Positions 8,798 to 32,394 of a stretch of DNA of 64,000 nt are shown piece after piece (the first letter of the stretch is position 1; each line of letters begins with the position of its first letter). Position numbers and translations under genes: made by a program. The notes beneath the pieces are model-generated. The model worked only from the letters and a program-made list of their open reading frames with translations. It did no database searches and was not told the origin of the DNA. Source of the DNA: Buttiauxella massiliensis (GTDB lineage Bacteria; Pseudomonadota; Gammaproteobacteria; Enterobacterales; Enterobacteriaceae); NCBI RefSeq assembly GCF_902500225.1, contig NZ_LR722654.1:124001-188000 (forward strand). The letters run 5' to 3'.

Positions 8798-9501
8798 GGT
8801 AAATCCTTATGTCGGACAATCAGGGCGGTACGCTCTCGCCAGTAACCACCGTAGGGTGTTTTGCAGGAGAGTTGCCCGTAGAGATGATGAAGAAGTTGGT
8901 TATCGTCAAGGAGGATCCCTGCATGATTTACCACAGGCGCGGATACCTGCATCAGTACCATATCGCCTAGCCGGGGTGTATCTACTTTGCGAAAGCCCTC
9001 GGCATACCAGTTATCAAGATACAGATTTTCATCCCCAGACTCCCACCAGGGTCGCTCCACGCTGTAGTTTTTAAGCTCAATACCCTGTCGTTTATGCCAA
9101 TCCATAATCAGTGACCAGCAGTCAGCATGGCCCAGCACAAAACCACGCCCTTCCAGTTCGCGTTCACCGCGCGGGTAAATGGTACGGATATCCCCTTCCG
9201 GCCATGAAGCAATAATCCACGGCACACCATGCGCATCGCACTGAAGCATATCCAGCTCACTCGGCTGCGTGGTAGCGCCATCACCAGGGTGACTATGCAC
9301 AATAGCTGTGATGGTTCCGCGGTCTTCCGCTGCTGCGTAATCCTCCGGGCAGAGCTCAAATTGCTCCATTGGTACCGGAGTTATATTCTTGCAGGGAATA
9401 TAGTGTTCCACCCGACCCTTCTGGATAACCAGACCACAGCATTCGGCAGGATATGCGGCCGCAGCATGCGCCATAATGGTCTGTAGTGTTGTTTCACGCA
9501 T
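8794..9501 (-). CDS. Tail assembly protein K, JAMM plus NlpC/P60 (235 aa)
   Basis: The N-terminal half is a JAMM/Mov34-type domain: AECCGLV, then HSHPGDGATTQPSELD, the metal-binding HxHPG...S...D pattern. The C-terminal half is an NlpC/P60 peptidase with the Cys in GHADCWSLI and the His in VNHAGI. In lambda, K acts in tail-tip assembly and probably in cell-wall penetration during DNA entry. Confidence 0.95.
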   Translation of the reverse strand: MRETTLQTIMAHAAAAYPAECCGLVIQKGRVEHYIPCKNITPVPMEQFELCPEDYAAAEDRGTITAIVHSHPGDGATTQPSELDMLQCDAHGVPWIIASWPEGDIRTIYPRGERELEGRGFVLGHADCWSLIMDWHKRQGIELKNYSVERPWWESGDENLYLDNWYAEGFRKVDTPRLGDMVLMQVSAPVVNHAGILLDDNQLLHHLYGQLSCKTPYGGYWRERTALIVRHKDLP

Positions 9502-26549: not shown

Positions 26550-26825
26550 CTAACTCCTTTTTCCAGTAATGTTCCCCCGCGAGTTCAACATCACCAGCAG
26601 GAGTATGAAATTCACAATGACTTCAGAGCGGTCCACGATTGTGTAGTTTCCTACCCATACGCGGATTGGTATTGAGATGAGTGCGACCATCGCCAGCCAG
26701 GCAATGATTGAGTAATGCAGCTTGTGACGAGAGTCAGTGCGCTGGTATGTCGCAATAATGATTGCCGTCGCCAGACTGATAACCGCATTTGCCTGAAGCC
26801 AGATGAAAGATGCATCGACTATCAT
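26550..26825 (-). CDS. Holin-family membrane protein (91 aa)
   Basis: Three predicted membrane segments: FIWLQANAVISLATAIIIAT, YSIIAWLAMVALISIPIRV and EVIVNFILLLVMLN, with a basic C-terminus. It resembles the phage holin 3 superfamily. It is directly before the endolysin and overlaps the other holin gene by four bases. Which of the two is holin and which antiholin is not clear. Confidence 0.85.
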   Translation of the reverse strand: MIVDASFIWLQANAVISLATAIIIATYQRTDSRHKLHYSIIAWLAMVALISIPIRVWVGNYTIVDRSEVIVNFILLLVMLNSRGNITGKRS

Positions 26826-27217
26826 TTCCCCTCCCCGGCTATCGTTTGCTTCTCCAGCCGTGATTTGTACATGAGGACAAAAGTGATAATGACCGCAGCA
26901 GCAACCATCGCGCCGATGGACTCAGGAACAGGGATAACCTCGGTTCCTGGGGCAATCTTTCCCAGTGTGGTATTCAGTGTGGCGTTGAGTATGGCGGTCA
27001 TGTACTTCGCACCAATCAGGCCAGCCAGGAATGAAGCCAGCCCGTAAAGCAGCTTTTCCCACCAGCGCAGGTTGCGGGAAGTAAGTACATAAAGCGTGGC
27101 GCCAGCGAAAGCACCAAGTATCACCCCGGCATCAGTGTTAGCCCACAAGCCGGCAAACGTGACAGTAGTCACCACAGCATGAGCTGTAGCAGTGCCGGAG
27201 ATAGGTTCTGCGGACAT
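26822..27217 (-). CDS. Putative holin (131 aa)
   Basis: Three to four membrane segments (VVTTVTFAGLWANTDAGVIL; LLYGLASFLAGLIGAKYM; SIGAMVAAAVIITFVLMY) and a charged C-terminus match a putative phage holin family found first in enterobacterial lysis cassettes. It is the first gene of the lysis operon. Confidence 0.85.
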   Translation of the reverse strand: MSAEPISGTATAHAVVTTVTFAGLWANTDAGVILGAFAGATLYVLTSRNLRWWEKLLYGLASFLAGLIGAKYMTAILNATLNTTLGKIAPGTEVIPVPESIGAMVAAAVIITFVLMYKSRLEKQTIAGEGK

Positions 27218-27277: not shown

Positions 27278-27306
27278 AAAAAAGGCCCACCGAAGTGGAC
27301 CTTATT
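27278..27306 (-). terminator. Intrinsic terminator of the protease cassette
   Basis: The minus strand reads AAGGTCCAC-TTCG-GTGGGCCTT followed by eight T. The stem includes one G-U type pair. It begins about ten bases after the protease stop. Confidence 0.85.
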
Positions 27307-27316
27307 ATATTTCTGT

Positions 27317-28228
27317 CTAGGCTTGACCAGGTGGAACGTGCCAAACTCGGCGACCGTCTTCATGGTTTTCAATTATTTTTGCAGCTGTGCTGCCACCAAA
27401 AGTGTGCATATAACTATGGTGGATAGTTAACACAATATCTTGCAAAGCCTGATCATTTTCCATAGGGGTAATTTTTAGCCCGATTTGGCTAGCTTTATCA
27501 CTATGAATATGGCGAGCATGAGCGAATGTAGAACTATGGTTGTTAAGATGTGCACAGATTTCATCTGCTTTCTGCTTTGCATCAGCTTCACCAGCAAACA
27601 TTCCAGTAACTAACCATTCGGTAACAATAGTTGAAGCCCATTGAATGGCTTTTTCACATTCACCAATGAATGTCGGGTTTAATTTGGACATGGTGAACTG
27701 CCAAAAATTCGCAGATGCAGGATTTTTTAGGATGTCCTGCATAGCCTTCTGTGATTCCTCTATGACACCGTGCGCAGGAACACCGCCAACTTGCGGATCA
27801 AATGGGCCTATGTTTGACTGCTTACCCATCACAATTTCTTTTGCTGTACATGCGAGCATAGTTCCAGCAGACATTGAAATCATTGGAACGAAAACCCGGA
27901 TATCACTGCCAAATTTTGCACGTAAATAATATCCAATAGATTCAAGGGCAGCTATGTCACCACCAGGGGTGTGCAAAAGCAGATCGAGACCTTTAGTAGT
28001 ATCAAGCCCATGAATTGCCGTCATGAATCCGTTTTTATCATCATCAGTCATGCTGATTAAATGGCTAACTGATGGAGAGCTTTTTTGAAGAAAACCAGAA
28101 TAGTATGCAATTACATTTCGCCCAGTCATTTCTGACATTTCTTTAATGTACTTGCTTCTAACAGTGTCCAGAGGGCTTTTTTGGGCGAGTACTGCCATCT
28201 CGCCCATGACCTTATTCCAATTAGGCAT
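27317..28228 (-). CDS. Clp-fold serine protease of the SDH/SppA-like family (303 aa)
   Basis: The protein has LLLHTPGGDIAALESIGYYL (about residues 83-102), the nucleophile Ser in MSAGTM (Ser120), and NIGPFDPQ (139-146), the signature of the serine dehydrogenase proteinase (SDH) family, a relative of ClpP and SppA. No signal peptide or clear membrane helix is seen, so it is probably cytoplasmic. The last 80 residues contain several His and may bind a partner. It follows a 69-aa gene after two bases and has its own promoter and terminator. It is accessory cargo, not a lambda core gene; the substrate is unknown. Confidence 0.85.
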   Translation of the reverse strand: MPNWNKVMGEMAVLAQKSPLDTVRSKYIKEMSEMTGRNVIAYYSGFLQKSSPSVSHLISMTDDDKNGFMTAIHGLDTTKGLDLLLHTPGGDIAALESIGYYLRAKFGSDIRVFVPMISMSAGTMLACTAKEIVMGKQSNIGPFDPQVGGVPAHGVIEESQKAMQDILKNPASANFWQFTMSKLNPTFIGECEKAIQWASTIVTEWLVTGMFAGEADAKQKADEICAHLNNHSSTFAHARHIHSDKASQIGLKITPMENDQALQDIVLTIHHSYMHTFGGSTAAKIIENHEDGRRVWHVPPGQA

Positions 28229-28230
28229 AA

Positions 28231-28440
28231 TTAATATGAATAAAGCTGATATTCCTGGTTAACTACATGATTAACATTGAGTTTATCAACAGAGGATCCT
28301 GTAGAATATAAAACTCCTGTTTGCTCCAATTGCATGGAGTTAGAGCTCATAACCCTGCGACCAAAGTCATTAACAGTCTCATGTGGTTTGAACTCAGATT
28401 GCGCAATTCCAAAGTTTTCGTACAGCTCGGTTATAGTCAT
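28231..28440 (-). CDS. Small partner protein of the Clp-fold protease (69 aa)
   Basis: The ATG at 28440 is preferred, since the promoter -10 lies at 28460-28465 and upstream codons would be untranscribed. The protein starts MTITELYENFGIAQSEF and ends with a Tyr-rich tail (NQEYQLYSY). No domain is recognised. The two-base spacing to the protease suggests coupled translation and a shared job, perhaps substrate, adaptor or inhibitor. Confidence 0.7.
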   Translation of the reverse strand: MTITELYENFGIAQSEFKPHETVNDFGRRVMSSNSMQLEQTGVLYSTGSSVDKLNVNHVVNQEYQLYSY

Positions 28441-28459
28441 AGCTTCGACCCCACTAAAT

Positions 28460-28488
28460 ACTATATATAGCGACAAAAAACCCGCCAA
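28460..28488 (-). promoter_or_regulatory. Sigma-70 promoter of the protease cassette
   Basis: On the minus strand TTGGCG (28488-28483) and TATAGT (28465-28460) are spaced by exactly 17 bp. The transcription start should be near 28453, just before the ATG at 28440, so the leader would be very short. Confidence 0.75.
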
Positions 28489-28521
28489 CCCACTACATAT
28501 AGAAACACCTGTTATACAGAT

Positions 28522-28546
28522 GCGAAAAGAGCCCCTTCCGGAGCTC
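28522..28546 (-). terminator. Intrinsic terminator upstream of the protease promoter
   Basis: The minus strand has arms GAGCTCC and GGGGCTC around GGAA, followed by TTTTCG. It would insulate the protease cassette from upstream transcription. Confidence 0.65.
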
Positions 28547-28942: not shown

Positions 28943-29521
28943 TTAAGCAGTTTCCGCGCAACGTTGCAAGGTGAATCTGTCGCTATTTGTATCGAACACA
29001 TCACACATTGGCACATATAGCATCGATTCTGCCAAATTTAACCAGGTATCAATACGGGTTTCACAAGTTCTAAGGCACCACTCAGGATTCCGGTGGTGAA
29101 GTTCTCGCGCCATGGCCTTTTTACTCATCCGGCGTTGATAACGGTCATATAGCAAAGCGACAAGCGCACCGTGCCCTTTTGACTTGAGTACAGCGCAAAC
29201 CACTCCATCAATCTTCAAAGCTTCCTCATCACTACAAAACGCCAGATTGCTTTTGTGCTTCCCGTTCAGTATCTCCTTTAAGAAAGCTTCCAACTCCGGT
29301 TTTGTTATGCCGGACTTCTTCATGCGGCGTAGTGCTTCATTGATAGCTGTTTTGGTTAGCGTTTTAGTGGCCAGAAGTTGGTTAAACATGTTGCCACCGC
29401 AACCACCACCAATAAATGACCAGCGTCCCCACATACGCAGCTTTCCCTGAATCCAGATGCTCTCGAGCGTACGTAAACGAACCATCTCACTGCTTTTGCC
29501 TGTTGCTGTTGAATTAATCAT
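28943..29521 (-). CDS. DUF1133-family protein, probable late antiterminator (192 aa)
   Basis: It contains the block VRLRTLESIWIQGKLRMWGR then GGCGGNMFNQLLA and ELHHRNPEWCLRTCETRIDT, which I associate with DUF1133. These proteins occupy the position of antiterminator Q in many enterobacterial prophages. It is the last gene of the early right operon and is followed by terminators typical of a Q target. The Q-like function is inferred from place. Confidence 0.8.
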   Translation of the reverse strand: MINSTATGKSSEMVRLRTLESIWIQGKLRMWGRWSFIGGGCGGNMFNQLLATKTLTKTAINEALRRMKKSGITKPELEAFLKEILNGKHKSNLAFCSDEEALKIDGVVCAVLKSKGHGALVALLYDRYQRRMSKKAMARELHHRNPEWCLRTCETRIDTWLNLAESMLYVPMCDVFDTNSDRFTLQRCAETA

Positions 29522-29533
29522 TTACTGTCTCCC

Positions 29534-30523
29534 TTACGCCAGCACGCCGAGCGAGCAAGCCCGGTCAATAACTCGAATGATCATTACCGGTTGTGAGCCA
29601 TGCTTTTGCTCAAATTTCACCGGGTCGTTATGTAGTTCTGTATGGCATGTACGGCAAAGAGGAATAGACAAAACGTCATGAGCCTTAGTACCCATCCCAC
29701 CCTGCCCCCAACCTATTAAATGATGTGGGTCGTCAGCTGGTGAGCCGCATCCCTCACATGGCTGTGTTTTTACCCATTGAAGGTATGTTGGTTTTTCCAG
29801 GCGAATGCGTTTTGGGCGCTTCATAAGAGTGCCTGGACTTTCCGGATCAACCTTCAGCTTGAAAACCGGCTTCACTTTTTCCTGGATAATGCTGGTGGCC
29901 GGTACATCAGGAACAATGTCACATTCACGGCTTACAGATGGGATGACATCCTGAGGCATACGCAGTGCGCGGCGGGCCATCCCTTCAGGCAGGCAATCAA
30001 CCAGGTCATATCGTATCGCCCACCAACAGAGCTCCGGCAACGTCAGCTGATGTGTATCATCAAACCCAAGGTTGCGCAGTGCTGAAGCAATGACGAATTC
30101 CACCACGTTCCGGTGCGCCAGATCCGCAAGTAGCTCTGTCGCCTGCTCTCGCAACTTGTTATCGCAATGCCAGCAAATACGAATTGAGCCTGGTGGATAA
30201 GGCATGATGACCATTTCGGGGTGGTGGTAATCACCGTGCGGATACTGACAACCATTCTCCCTGAGGAGGGATGCTTTTAGGGTCGAAAGGCCACCAGCAG
30301 CCTGAATCACCCGCGCATTGGTGAAAAAGGCCAGCAGCGCCTTATCATCACAAAGCGGTTGTGTTGCCGCCGGTACAATACCGGACGGCAGATGCTTTAA
30401 ATGCTCAGGAACACATTCAATCAGCACACGACCCTGATGGAATAGAGCCATCACATCTGAGCCTGGACGGAATAGCGCCAGGCCGAGACGCGGGGCAATT
30501 TCAGGGGTAAGGATCACCCTCAT
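29534..30523 (-). CDS. DUF968-family HNH-like protein (329 aa)
   Basis: The ATG at 30523 overlaps the methyltransferase stop (ATGA); the frame opens earlier without support. The C-terminal third has a zinc-binding HNH-like cluster: CEGCG, DDPHHLIGWGQGGMGTKAHD, then CRTCHTELH. A second CWHCDNK lies in the middle. The family is common next to Q in lambdoid phages (YbcN/YbcO region) and may act in recombination, but the activity is not established here. Confidence 0.82.
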   Translation of the reverse strand: MRVILTPEIAPRLGLALFRPGSDVMALFHQGRVLIECVPEHLKHLPSGIVPAATQPLCDDKALLAFFTNARVIQAAGGLSTLKASLLRENGCQYPHGDYHHPEMVIMPYPPGSIRICWHCDNKLREQATELLADLAHRNVVEFVIASALRNLGFDDTHQLTLPELCWWAIRYDLVDCLPEGMARRALRMPQDVIPSVSRECDIVPDVPATSIIQEKVKPVFKLKVDPESPGTLMKRPKRIRLEKPTYLQWVKTQPCEGCGSPADDPHHLIGWGQGGMGTKAHDVLSIPLCRTCHTELHNDPVKFEQKHGSQPVMIIRVIDRACSLGVLA

Positions 30524-32394
30524 GCCACCTCCCGTTGCTGGAGGCCACAAAGCTCAGGGAGATTTGCGCGTACTAAAGCTTCCGCAAAAGGTGGTGGTAC
30601 CGCATTGCCGCAGCGGGCAACCTGCTTATCTTTCGCGTATCGATTACCGCGGTAATCCTGGTCGATGATGTACCATTCCGGAAAGCCCTGGGCGCGATAA
30701 AGCTCATGCGGCTGAAGCATGCGCATGCCAATATCAACGATACGGTAAGTCACGCCATCCACTGTGACGAACTCTCGATAATCATCACCGCAGTACTCAC
30801 GCAAGAAGGCCGATACTTCTTCGGCGCGCTGCTCGTCATACTCATCGACCGCCAGATAAGTCTCGACGTTGCCAACGTGCAGGCCACCAGCCGTTAAGCC
30901 TGGTGCCGGTGCGTCAACCACTCGACCGTCTTTGCATGTTCCCCGCAGCATAACGAGATGGGATGTAACCAGAGCGTGGTGGTCCACTGTCGTTACTGAA
31001 TGCACCGGCTCATCCATCGAGACACCCGGCCCCGTGTAGTTGCCTCCAAAATGCTTAACGAGATTTGCGGTAACAAGTTGGGATTTACCGCCCCCACCAG
31101 CGGTGATAGTGGCGCTAGGTTCATCAATTTGATGACCGATGCTGTTGCCGAACTGTCGAGCGATAACAGGCGCGACAACACACGCATGGGACTCTTTTAA
31201 GACGGTGTGAGCTGGCTTGTCTAGCGGGCGAGGTTTTGCCTGATACTCTCCGCCGCCATTTCCAGCCAGGAATGGTGAAAGAATAGTTTCCACCATGCCC
31301 AGCGCATGACCATTCCCACCAGGCCGCTTTGAAGTACCAGCGGTTATTGTCGGTACCGGCTCGCGGCAATCCTGTCCGGTCGCGCCAGTTCTGAACTTGG
31401 TGATGTGCGGTACCGCAATCGCGTAGCCATGCGTTTTGGTGATGGTCTGCAATGGCTCATCCAGCGACTGCCCACGGAAACAGTCGTACTTCGTCCGCGT
31501 GCTGGTGTGGTTGCACTTCACGATAAACGGCGTGGCACTATCAACAACAAAACGCTGAACGCCCCTGGCAATACGTTTAAGCGTGTTGGCGGCCAGCGGT
31601 CGCTTACGCTCAAAGATGCTCGGGCAATCAAGCGACCAGTCGATACATTCAGCTGCTGTGCGCCATGGTTTGAGCGTGCCGTTTAGCACTCCCAGCGACT
31701 TGGGGTCGCCGTGTGAAGGCTCAGGCCATGTAACCGGCTGCCCGTCGCAACGCATCACCATGAAGAAGCGTTTGCGGATTGTTGGCGCGCCGTAGTCGCA
31801 TGCTCGCAGCTCGCGAGAATCAACGTCATATCCAAGCCCGTTAACCAGGCGAAGAGCGTCGCTGCTGTGTGGCTCAATACCTAGGAAATCACATGCTTCA
31901 GTCAGTGCTGGATGCCCAGCATCAATACCAGCACCCAGCATGCCAACGAACGCAGCAAAGGTTTCACCGGCACGTTTCGGATCTGGTCGCTGATCGCCAT
32001 TTTCATCCACCAGCAACGGTCCCCACGTTTTGAACTCTTCCACATTCTCCAGCATCATCACTCGAGGACGAACCGCCAACGCCCAGCGAAGCACAATCCA
32101 GGCAAGCCCGCGAATCTCCCGCGCTACCGGCTTTGAGCCTTTCGCTTTACTGAAGTGACGGCAATCAGGGGAAAACCAGGCTAGGCCAACCGGATTGCCG
32201 GCAGTTGCCTGTTTCGGATCGATATCAAATACGGACTCGCAATAGTGCAGCGTGTCCGGATGATTCGTTTTGTGCATCGCTACTGCGTTCTCGTCGTGAT
32301 TGATAGCAATATCTACGCTTCGACCAATAGCAAGTTCAATACCCGTTGACGCGCCACCGCCACCAGCAAAGTTATCGACAATAATCTCACGCAC
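30520..32394 (-). CDS. DNA cytosine-5 methyltransferase with repeat array (624 aa)
   Basis: Motif I is NFAGGGGASTGIE (8-20). The catalytic Cys is Cys78 in SPDCRHFSKAKG, with Asp in place of the usual second Pro. Motif VI is ENVEEF (116-121), motif VIII is in YGAPTIRKRFF (201-211), and the last motif is QVARCGNAVPPPFAEAL. Between VIII and the end, residues 311-505 hold about six degenerate repeats beginning (L/I/M/V)DEPxxTxT. This is where a target-recognition domain should be. It probably protects phage DNA from host restriction. No cognate nuclease is next to it. Confidence 0.92.
   Translation of the reverse strand: MREIIVDNFAGGGGASTGIELAIGRSVDIAINHDENAVAMHKTNHPDTLHYCESVFDIDPKQATAGNPVGLAWFSPDCRHFSKAKGSKPVAREIRGLAWIVLRWALAVRPRVMMLENVEEFKTWGPLLVDENGDQRPDPKRAGETFAAFVGMLGAGIDAGHPALTEACDFLGIEPHSSDALRLVNGLGYDVDSRELRACDYGAPTIRKRFFMVMRCDGQPVTWPEPSHGDPKSLGVLNGTLKPWRTAAECIDWSLDCPSIFERKRPLAANTLKRIARGVQRFVVDSATPFIVKCNHTSTRTKYDCFRGQSLDEPLQTITKTHGYAIAVPHITKFRTGATGQDCREPVPTITAGTSKRPGGNGHALGMVETILSPFLAGNGGGEYQAKPRPLDKPAHTVLKESHACVVAPVIARQFGNSIGHQIDEPSATITAGGGGKSQLVTANLVKHFGGNYTGPGVSMDEPVHSVTTVDHHALVTSHLVMLRGTCKDGRVVDAPAPGLTAGGLHVGNVETYLAVDEYDEQRAEEVSAFLREYCGDDYREFVTVDGVTYRIVDIGMRMLQPHELYRAQGFPEWYIIDQDYRGNRYAKDKQVARCGNAVPPPFAEALVRANLPELCGLQQREVA

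Follow-up and report, generated by a model that had tools for sequence, protein, structure and literature searches.

The locus described here raises the question of why a temperate phage should carry a Clp-fold serine protease together with a protein of 69 residues between its late regulator and its lysis genes, and by what means the pair is controlled.

Architecture of the locus

In the window, i.e. the whole stretch of 64,000 nucleotides that was analysed from Buttiauxella massiliensis, a two-gene prophage unit on the minus strand was confirmed, consisting of a 69-aa ORF, a 303-aa protease ORF and a terminator. The unit and its context comprise the following features (window coordinates):

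26550..27217, minus strand: two holin genes (context), at 26822-27217 and 26550-26825, phrog_198 and phrog_217
27282..27303, minus strand: intrinsic terminator at the end of the unit, with a nine-pair stem, a 4-base loop and a T-run
27317..28228, minus strand: 303-aa SDH-type Clp-fold serine protease, ATG at 28228; phrog_11747; PF01972; nucleophile Ser120 by homology
28231..28440, minus strand: 69-aa partner protein, ATG at 28440, stop ending at 28231; phrog_25714, unknown function, E 5.2e-12
28460..28465, minus strand: candidate -10, TATAGT
28461..28470, minus strand: proximal NrdR-like box, CTATATATAG, overlapping the candidate -10
28483..28488, minus strand: candidate -35, weak, TTGGCG
28493..28502, minus strand: distal NrdR-like box, CTATATGTAG on the minus strand, fitting CWAYATRTWG, 32 bp from the proximal box
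28531..28544, minus strand: terminator-like hairpin directly upstream of the unit, GCTCC-GGAA-GGGGC, then TCTTTTCG
28943..29521, minus strand: Q-like late antiterminator (context), phrog_753, E 1.7e-67

A preliminary description of this DNA had proposed a self-contained cargo unit of a protease and a small partner, with two bases between the genes, a terminator behind the protease and a placement between a late regulator and the holins, and all of this is borne out by the features above. The GC content of the two cassette genes amounts to 41.3%, compared with 50.5% for the window. Upstream of Q, the same prophage carries genes for a DNA methyltransferase (30520-32394) and an HNH endonuclease (29534-30550).

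The promoter, earlier called consensus-like, stands on a different footing. As given (TTGGCG, 17 bp, TATAGT) it matches the consensus at 9 of 12 positions overall, which is not above chance by itself, and a simple scan of a 4-kb region returned 4 promoter-like sites, compared with a mean of 6.5 in shuffled sequences. What supports a promoter at 28460-28488 is the conserved pair of palindromes that covers it. Neither these palindromes nor the upstream hairpin (28544-28531) had been mentioned in the preliminary description.

Insulation of the unit was surveyed in 21 loci, made up of the window together with 20 of the 21 relatives that bear boxes at ≥60% protease identity (all but L141). Behind the protease there is a terminator in all 21 loci, compared with 0.30 expected in shuffles, and a terminator-like hairpin precedes the boxes in 16 of them (0.27 in shuffles), 87-94 bp before the partner start. 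Three loci (L001, L199 and L200) have NrdR-like boxes before the partner and an intrinsic terminator between partner and protease, so that the partner should be made in excess there. An own promoter and terminator, low GC content and variable insertion places are features that the cassette has in common with phage morons; it differs from them in being a protease pair that would be tied to a host nucleotide sensor, and we know of no moron that is tied to such a sensor in this way.

The SDH-type protease

The protease matches the Pfam family PF01972 (SDH_protease) with an E value of 4.7e-20 and 72.2 bits, above the cut-off of 31.3, and the SDH-family motifs reported earlier were recovered as HTPGGD (residues 86-91), SAGT (120-123) and GPFDPQ (141-146). 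The NCBIfam equivalog NF047768 (Clp_like_SDH) gives 90.8 bits, below its curated cut-off of 250, and the ClpP profile PF00574 gives 12.5 bits, below 20.2. The window protease has the fold family and the motifs in common with the SDH-type Clp-fold serine proteinases (PF01972; NF047768), from which its subfamily differs by a conserved small partner and by the NF047768 score below cut-off. It also matches phrog_11747 (E 2.3e-108), a family annotated as 'unknown function'; both proteins are thus already catalogued among the PHROG families (11747 and 25714), each under that same label. RefSeq names the E. coli relatives 'SDH family Clp fold serine proteinase', and the gene preceding the E. coli protease is unannotated in one locus (L227) and a 'hypothetical protein' in another (L228).

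Ser120 is invariant in 25 of 25 aligned rows and occupies the same place in all 74 rows of a second alignment. Other residues invariant in the 25-row and 74-row alignments are Asp82, His86, Gly141-Pro142, Asp144-Pro145, His237, Glu257, His270 and His271. The serine of the SAGT motif in NfeD 1510-N aligns with Ser120 in a weak sequence match (E 8e-4), and by homology Ser120 is the probable nucleophile. In ClpP the catalytic histidine lies about 25 residues after the serine, a place which we take to be residue 145 of the window protease; no ClpP-type histidine was found there in the 25-row alignment, in which the position is an invariant proline. The dyad lysine of NfeD lies about 41 residues after the serine, presumably at position 161, and no NfeD/SppA-type lysine is conserved at that position in the 25 rows (K, R, Q, H and others); a lysine elsewhere may serve. 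The best PDB folds found by Foldseek for the protease model were ClpP (E 1e-3, TM by target 0.64) and SppA (1.7e-3), and no PDB match lay below E 1e-3. The relation to ClpP, SppA and NfeD (1510-N) consists in the alignment of Ser120 and a likeness of fold, but with weak matches only, and the conserved histidine of ClpP and lysine of NfeD are without a conserved counterpart at the corresponding places.

The small partner and its linkage to the protease

Searches of Pfam, NCBIfam and PADLOC gave no match to the 69-aa partner at E values up to 1. The protein belongs to the family phrog_25714, which matches 19 of the 41 partners scanned. The aligned partners follow a common pattern, with a first helix (xELYxxFGI), a second helix (dFaxR) and then V-x-Y-S-S/T; at least 90% of 41 rows have Tyr45. 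In the window's clade, the partners, including that at 28231-28440, end in YSY or YTY, a tail absent from the other aligned partners.

Whether the two genes travel together was judged on 199 loci with a readable protease start, of which 150 with unique proteases were kept; seven begin at a contig edge, leaving 143 unique loci with upstream DNA. With iterated profiles, a profile-linked small partner adjoins the protease in 126 of these 143 loci (122 at E ≤ 1e-4) and is absent in 17; one of the 126, L009, is matched only by the profile seeded with L009 itself. The partner lies upstream in 118 loci, with a median gap of 3 bp, and downstream in eight. The settings in which linked pairs were encountered range from phages and plasmids to many bacterial phyla and two archaeal MAGs. 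Joint conservation of the pair, on which the preliminary description had made its proposal depend, is accordingly found far beyond this prophage.

The profile seeded by the window matches 51 loci among upstream ORFs and 58 when downstream ORFs are added. As a decoy control, the version of this profile built from upstream ORFs only was set against 8,202 other ORFs of 40-130 aa from the same loci. Six matches appeared at E ≤ 0.01 (L054, L079, L081, L090, L108 and L076), all immediately downstream of the protease, and a seventh (L057, E 0.021) is likewise placed directly downstream; the remaining matches begin at E 0.042. It is because these decoy matches all adjoin the protease that a swapped gene order was recognised. 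The loci with swapped order (the seven just named and L040, the latter assigned by eye only) are mostly Bacillota MAGs, plus one Planctomycetota and one Treponema MAG. Against the same decoys, ten of the twelve final profiles gave 0 or 1 matches away from the protease, and the two seeded by L009 and L109 gave 2-3. The partner profile and the decoy control together rule out a chance pairing of ORFs. The sequences thus show that the two genes form an insulated unit whose members have been conserved together over very large distances.

A possible mode of contact between the two proteins was seen in a folded model. The joined construct was taken from L010, whose protease is 89% identical to that of the window and in which both genes lie in one frame; the intervening stop was read as serine, giving a three-residue linker, and the alignment combined 28 joined-frame rows with 46 protease rows. 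The model has a mean pLDDT of 84.8 and a pTM of 0.82. Within it the partner forms helices at 3-9 and 23-31 and a strand at 44-46, in the VxYS stretch; folded alone (41 rows) it forms both helices and no strand. The mean pLDDT of block 41-50 is 71 in the joined model and 60 alone, and the adjacent blocks show the reverse (31-40: 49 joined, 59 alone; 51-60: 41 joined, 49 alone). Since all other strands of at least three residues sit in the protease, strand 44-46 should pair with it. The evidence for this pairing of the VxYS strand is modest and derives from secondary structure.

An NrdR-type operator pair

The palindromes over the promoter were first noticed in the DNA preceding the two genes, both in the window and in eleven relatives. 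In the window, the pair of boxes at 28461-28502 shows 0 mismatches to a CWAYATRTWG pair at 32 bp, the expectation for such a pair with up to 2 mismatches being 0.02 matches in the whole window; at spacing 31 the window contains none. This arrangement recalls the operators of NrdR, for which boxes spaced about 31-32 bp have been reported and mutated boxes have been reporter-tested in S. Typhimurium, according to the part of that study consulted (PMC2892513). Binding of NrdR at spacers of 14-17 and 24-27 bp is also reported, in excerpts of another paper (PMC12051234).

When 143 regions (142 loci and the window) were scored against CWAYATRTWG with spacings of 28-36 allowed, 26 reached 17/20, and the best spacing was 31 or 32 in 25 of those 26. 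Box pairs of at least 17/20 at 31-32 bp number 26 (in 25 loci) in the stretch 500-90 bp before the protease, as against 2 elsewhere (1,497,478 bases, 150 loci); other spacings from 20 to 45 gave 0 to 7 pairs in the same upstream stretch, the 7 at spacing 30. Among loci with at least 320 bp upstream, grouped by protease identity to that of the window, the box pair is present in 21 of 22 at ≥60% identity, the exception (L044) being a short match. Below this value it was found in 1 of 9 loci at 56-60%, 1 of 83 at 50-56% and 2 of 26 below 50%. No pair at 31-32 bp with a score of at least 17 occurs in loci L204-L210 from the host's class or in L234 from its order. On a quick 96-row tree the boxes need 4 changes, and 22 of the 26 rows with boxes group together in a set of 24, the two remaining members of which (L134 and L157) start at a contig edge. 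As the boxes are nearly confined to the window's clade, control by NrdR would be a local addition that the general module does not include.

The host encodes nrdR (TIGR00244, E 3.2e-76) and has box pairs before its own ribonucleotide reductase operons: 19/20 at 32 bp for nrdAB, 20/20 at 31 bp for nrdDG and 17/20 at 31 bp for nrdHIEF, the latter two placed by distance from the matched domain. The cassette thus has the operator pair, the consensus and the 31-32 bp spacing in common with the NrdR regulon (nrdAB, nrdHIEF, nrdDG), from which it differs in that the operator would control a phage-borne protease and its partner instead of ribonucleotide reductases. Queries with host NrdA, NrdE and NrdD detected no ribonucleotide reductase gene near the pair in 202 loci at E ≤ 1e-8. 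A scan of viral contigs for box pairs gave, among the matches listed, at least 203 sites in 199 loci, including 1 protease locus and 6 loci with an nrd match. In one such contig (L414), an NrdR-like box pair at 9318 lies 74 bp before a match to host NrdA (59% identity). Judged by motif, the cassette promoter of this phage clade carries an operator pair of the NrdR kind.

Distribution and gene neighbourhood

Relatives of the protease occur in 7 of 50,697 records of annotated phages, namely in one Mu-like Shewanella phage, five Porphyromonas phages and one Gordonia phage. In Porphyromonas phage L002 (3855-4517), the pair sits among the structural genes, next to a HicA/HicB-like module. Plasmids contributed 33 records with relatives, the nearest being a 43-kb Enterobacter asburiae element at 65%; in the Enterobacter asburiae locus L006 (6001-6854), the protease is in four pieces with a broken frame (or sequencing errors), and NrdR-like boxes are still found upstream. 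A single-protein query recovered 35 loci from viral contigs, and with an alignment query the best 80 of 198 were obtained. From genomes, the best 80 of at least 468 relatives were taken; they come from many phyla, and MAGs named Methanosarcinaceae and Methanimicrococcus are among them. Such counts of breadth are lower bounds and are biased towards close relatives, of which many are MAGs. The protease has relatives in 86 of 5,426 E. coli genomes. In 60 genomes of relatives, the window's own protease and one weak partial match were found; in the host's order, where the protease is thus rare, 2 of 394 genomes at E ≤ 1e-60, its own included; and in the host's class, 8 of 369 genomes better than 1e-78, its own again included, with 15 further distant ones.

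Other prophages carry the pair in a corresponding position, as the preliminary description had asked, only in part. Four relatives (L010, L012, L016 and L020) have Q upstream, and in the Enterobacter asburiae element Q is upstream and a holin downstream of the protease; two examined E. coli prophages have the protease between lysis genes and terminase, the Mu-like phage has it between late regulator C and a lysozyme gene, and elsewhere it is found near integrases. The 1,231 ORFs that neighbour the pair in 124 non-redundant loci include no gene family present in more than 11 loci, which rules out a conserved third gene in the module. The largest neighbour clusters that could be identified by Pfam from representatives are integrases, cytosine methylase, Q and lysis genes, tyrosine integrases making up clusters of 11, 7 and 4 loci (one representative each).

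No PADLOC model matches partner or protease up to E 1, so that neither resembles a defence protein catalogued there. A defence scan covered 112 of 127 neighbours from genome loci (15 were left out, including protease pieces and low-complexity-looking ORFs), and among the matches listed, and in a comparison made without a control set, Pfam defence families were GmrSD with 2 members, BrxL with 1 and YhcG with 1. Under the same terms, no PADLOC model had more than 2 members among these 112 neighbours.

Proposed function and alternatives

The reading we prefer, at roughly even odds (about 0.5), is that the cassette is mobile two-gene protease-partner cargo of a temperate phage, derepressed through NrdR and serving most likely superinfection immunity or host takeover. 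In a quiet lysogen, host NrdR loaded with dATP would repress the cassette; when dATP falls, for example because a phage is replicating in the cell, NrdR would let go and the pair would be produced alongside the host ribonucleotide reductases. The partner may lay its VxYS strand against a strand of the protease and thereby keep the enzyme inactive or set its target. Least certain are the last steps, in which the freed or directed protease might cut phage or host proteins, such that either a competing phage would be blocked (superinfection immunity, perhaps abortive) or the resident phage would be aided in takeover during its own induction. Published RNA-seq of pneumococcus lytically infected by phage SpSL1 records that the NrdR regulon is strongly induced, as far as the sections consulted of that paper go (PMC6755750), and phage cargo under NrdR would accordingly rise when phage replication drains dATP. 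The defence or immunity role suggested in the preliminary description is plausible, a guess as yet unproven, and cleavage of a regulator, likewise suggested there, is neither supported nor excluded by anything found here.

The unit lies within possible reach of Q-driven late transcription, which makes a lytic role possible. Release of NrdR and read-through from Q would then together raise the pair, and the protease would trim host or virion proteins for lysis, assembly or takeover. Its position between Q and the holins in the window and in the Enterobacter asburiae element, the relatives with Q upstream and the place behind late regulator C in the Mu-like phage all agree with such a function, and replication of the resident phage should also release NrdR. 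Against a lytic gene speak the unit's own NrdR-type promoter and the terminators on both sides; the position of the cassette differs from phage to phage, and related pairs reside in bacterial and archaeal contigs with no neighbour family in more than 11 of 124 loci. This explanation is regarded as unlikely, if the least so of the three considered here. Ranked next, and unlikely as well, is an addiction module resembling toxin-antitoxin systems, in which a toxic protease would be held by an inhibitor partner made first and in excess, to the benefit of retention of the element. The small gene does come first, with a near-zero gap, and is conserved beside an effector gene in the 126 loci; by eye, no clear Shine-Dalgarno sequence precedes the protease ATG; the terminators between the genes in L001, L199 and L200, the wide spread and neighbours such as HicAB and MbcA/RES point the same way. 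Yet searches of Pfam, NCBIfam and PADLOC linked neither of the two proteins to a known toxin or antitoxin family, and the gene order is swapped in eight loci.

The identity of the regulator itself may also be questioned, since the NrdR match rests on sequence, and the bases outside the 10-mer fit the longer NrdR consensus only partly. Another regulator with a similar palindrome could then own the operator pair, with NrdR not acting at the cassette. Against this stand the match in sequence and in 31-32 bp spacing to NrdR sites, including those before the host's own nrd operons, and the finding that the sole regulator-like cluster (by eye) among the 32 largest neighbour clusters occurs in 3 of 124 loci, so this appears improbable. 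Returning to NrdR-derepressed cargo, one should note that the module is without boxes in most lineages seen, and NrdR would accordingly be one possible wiring of the module and would not define it. A bolder version, which we advance tentatively and hold to be possible more than probable, takes the pair as an unnamed mobile system of a Clp-fold protease and a dedicated strand-docking partner that temperate phages have wired to NrdR, with the fall in dATP as the alarm for phage-encoded immunity.

Implications

Searches of the open-access literature on this protease family, on such a pair and on NrdR with phages gave, among the matches listed, no description of the cassette, in keeping with the earlier view that the pair is undescribed; the excerpts available of PMC10367356, PMC12419801 and PMC5894146 have no bearing on the protease-partner question. 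If the preferred reading is true, a protease-partner module exists across bacteria, archaeal MAGs and mobile elements that is unnamed so far in the open-access literature searched, one half being annotated by its fold and the other unannotated or hypothetical. Phages would then be able to place cargo under NrdR, which is known as the repressor of ribonucleotide reductase genes, and the fall of DNA precursors during infection would become a trigger.
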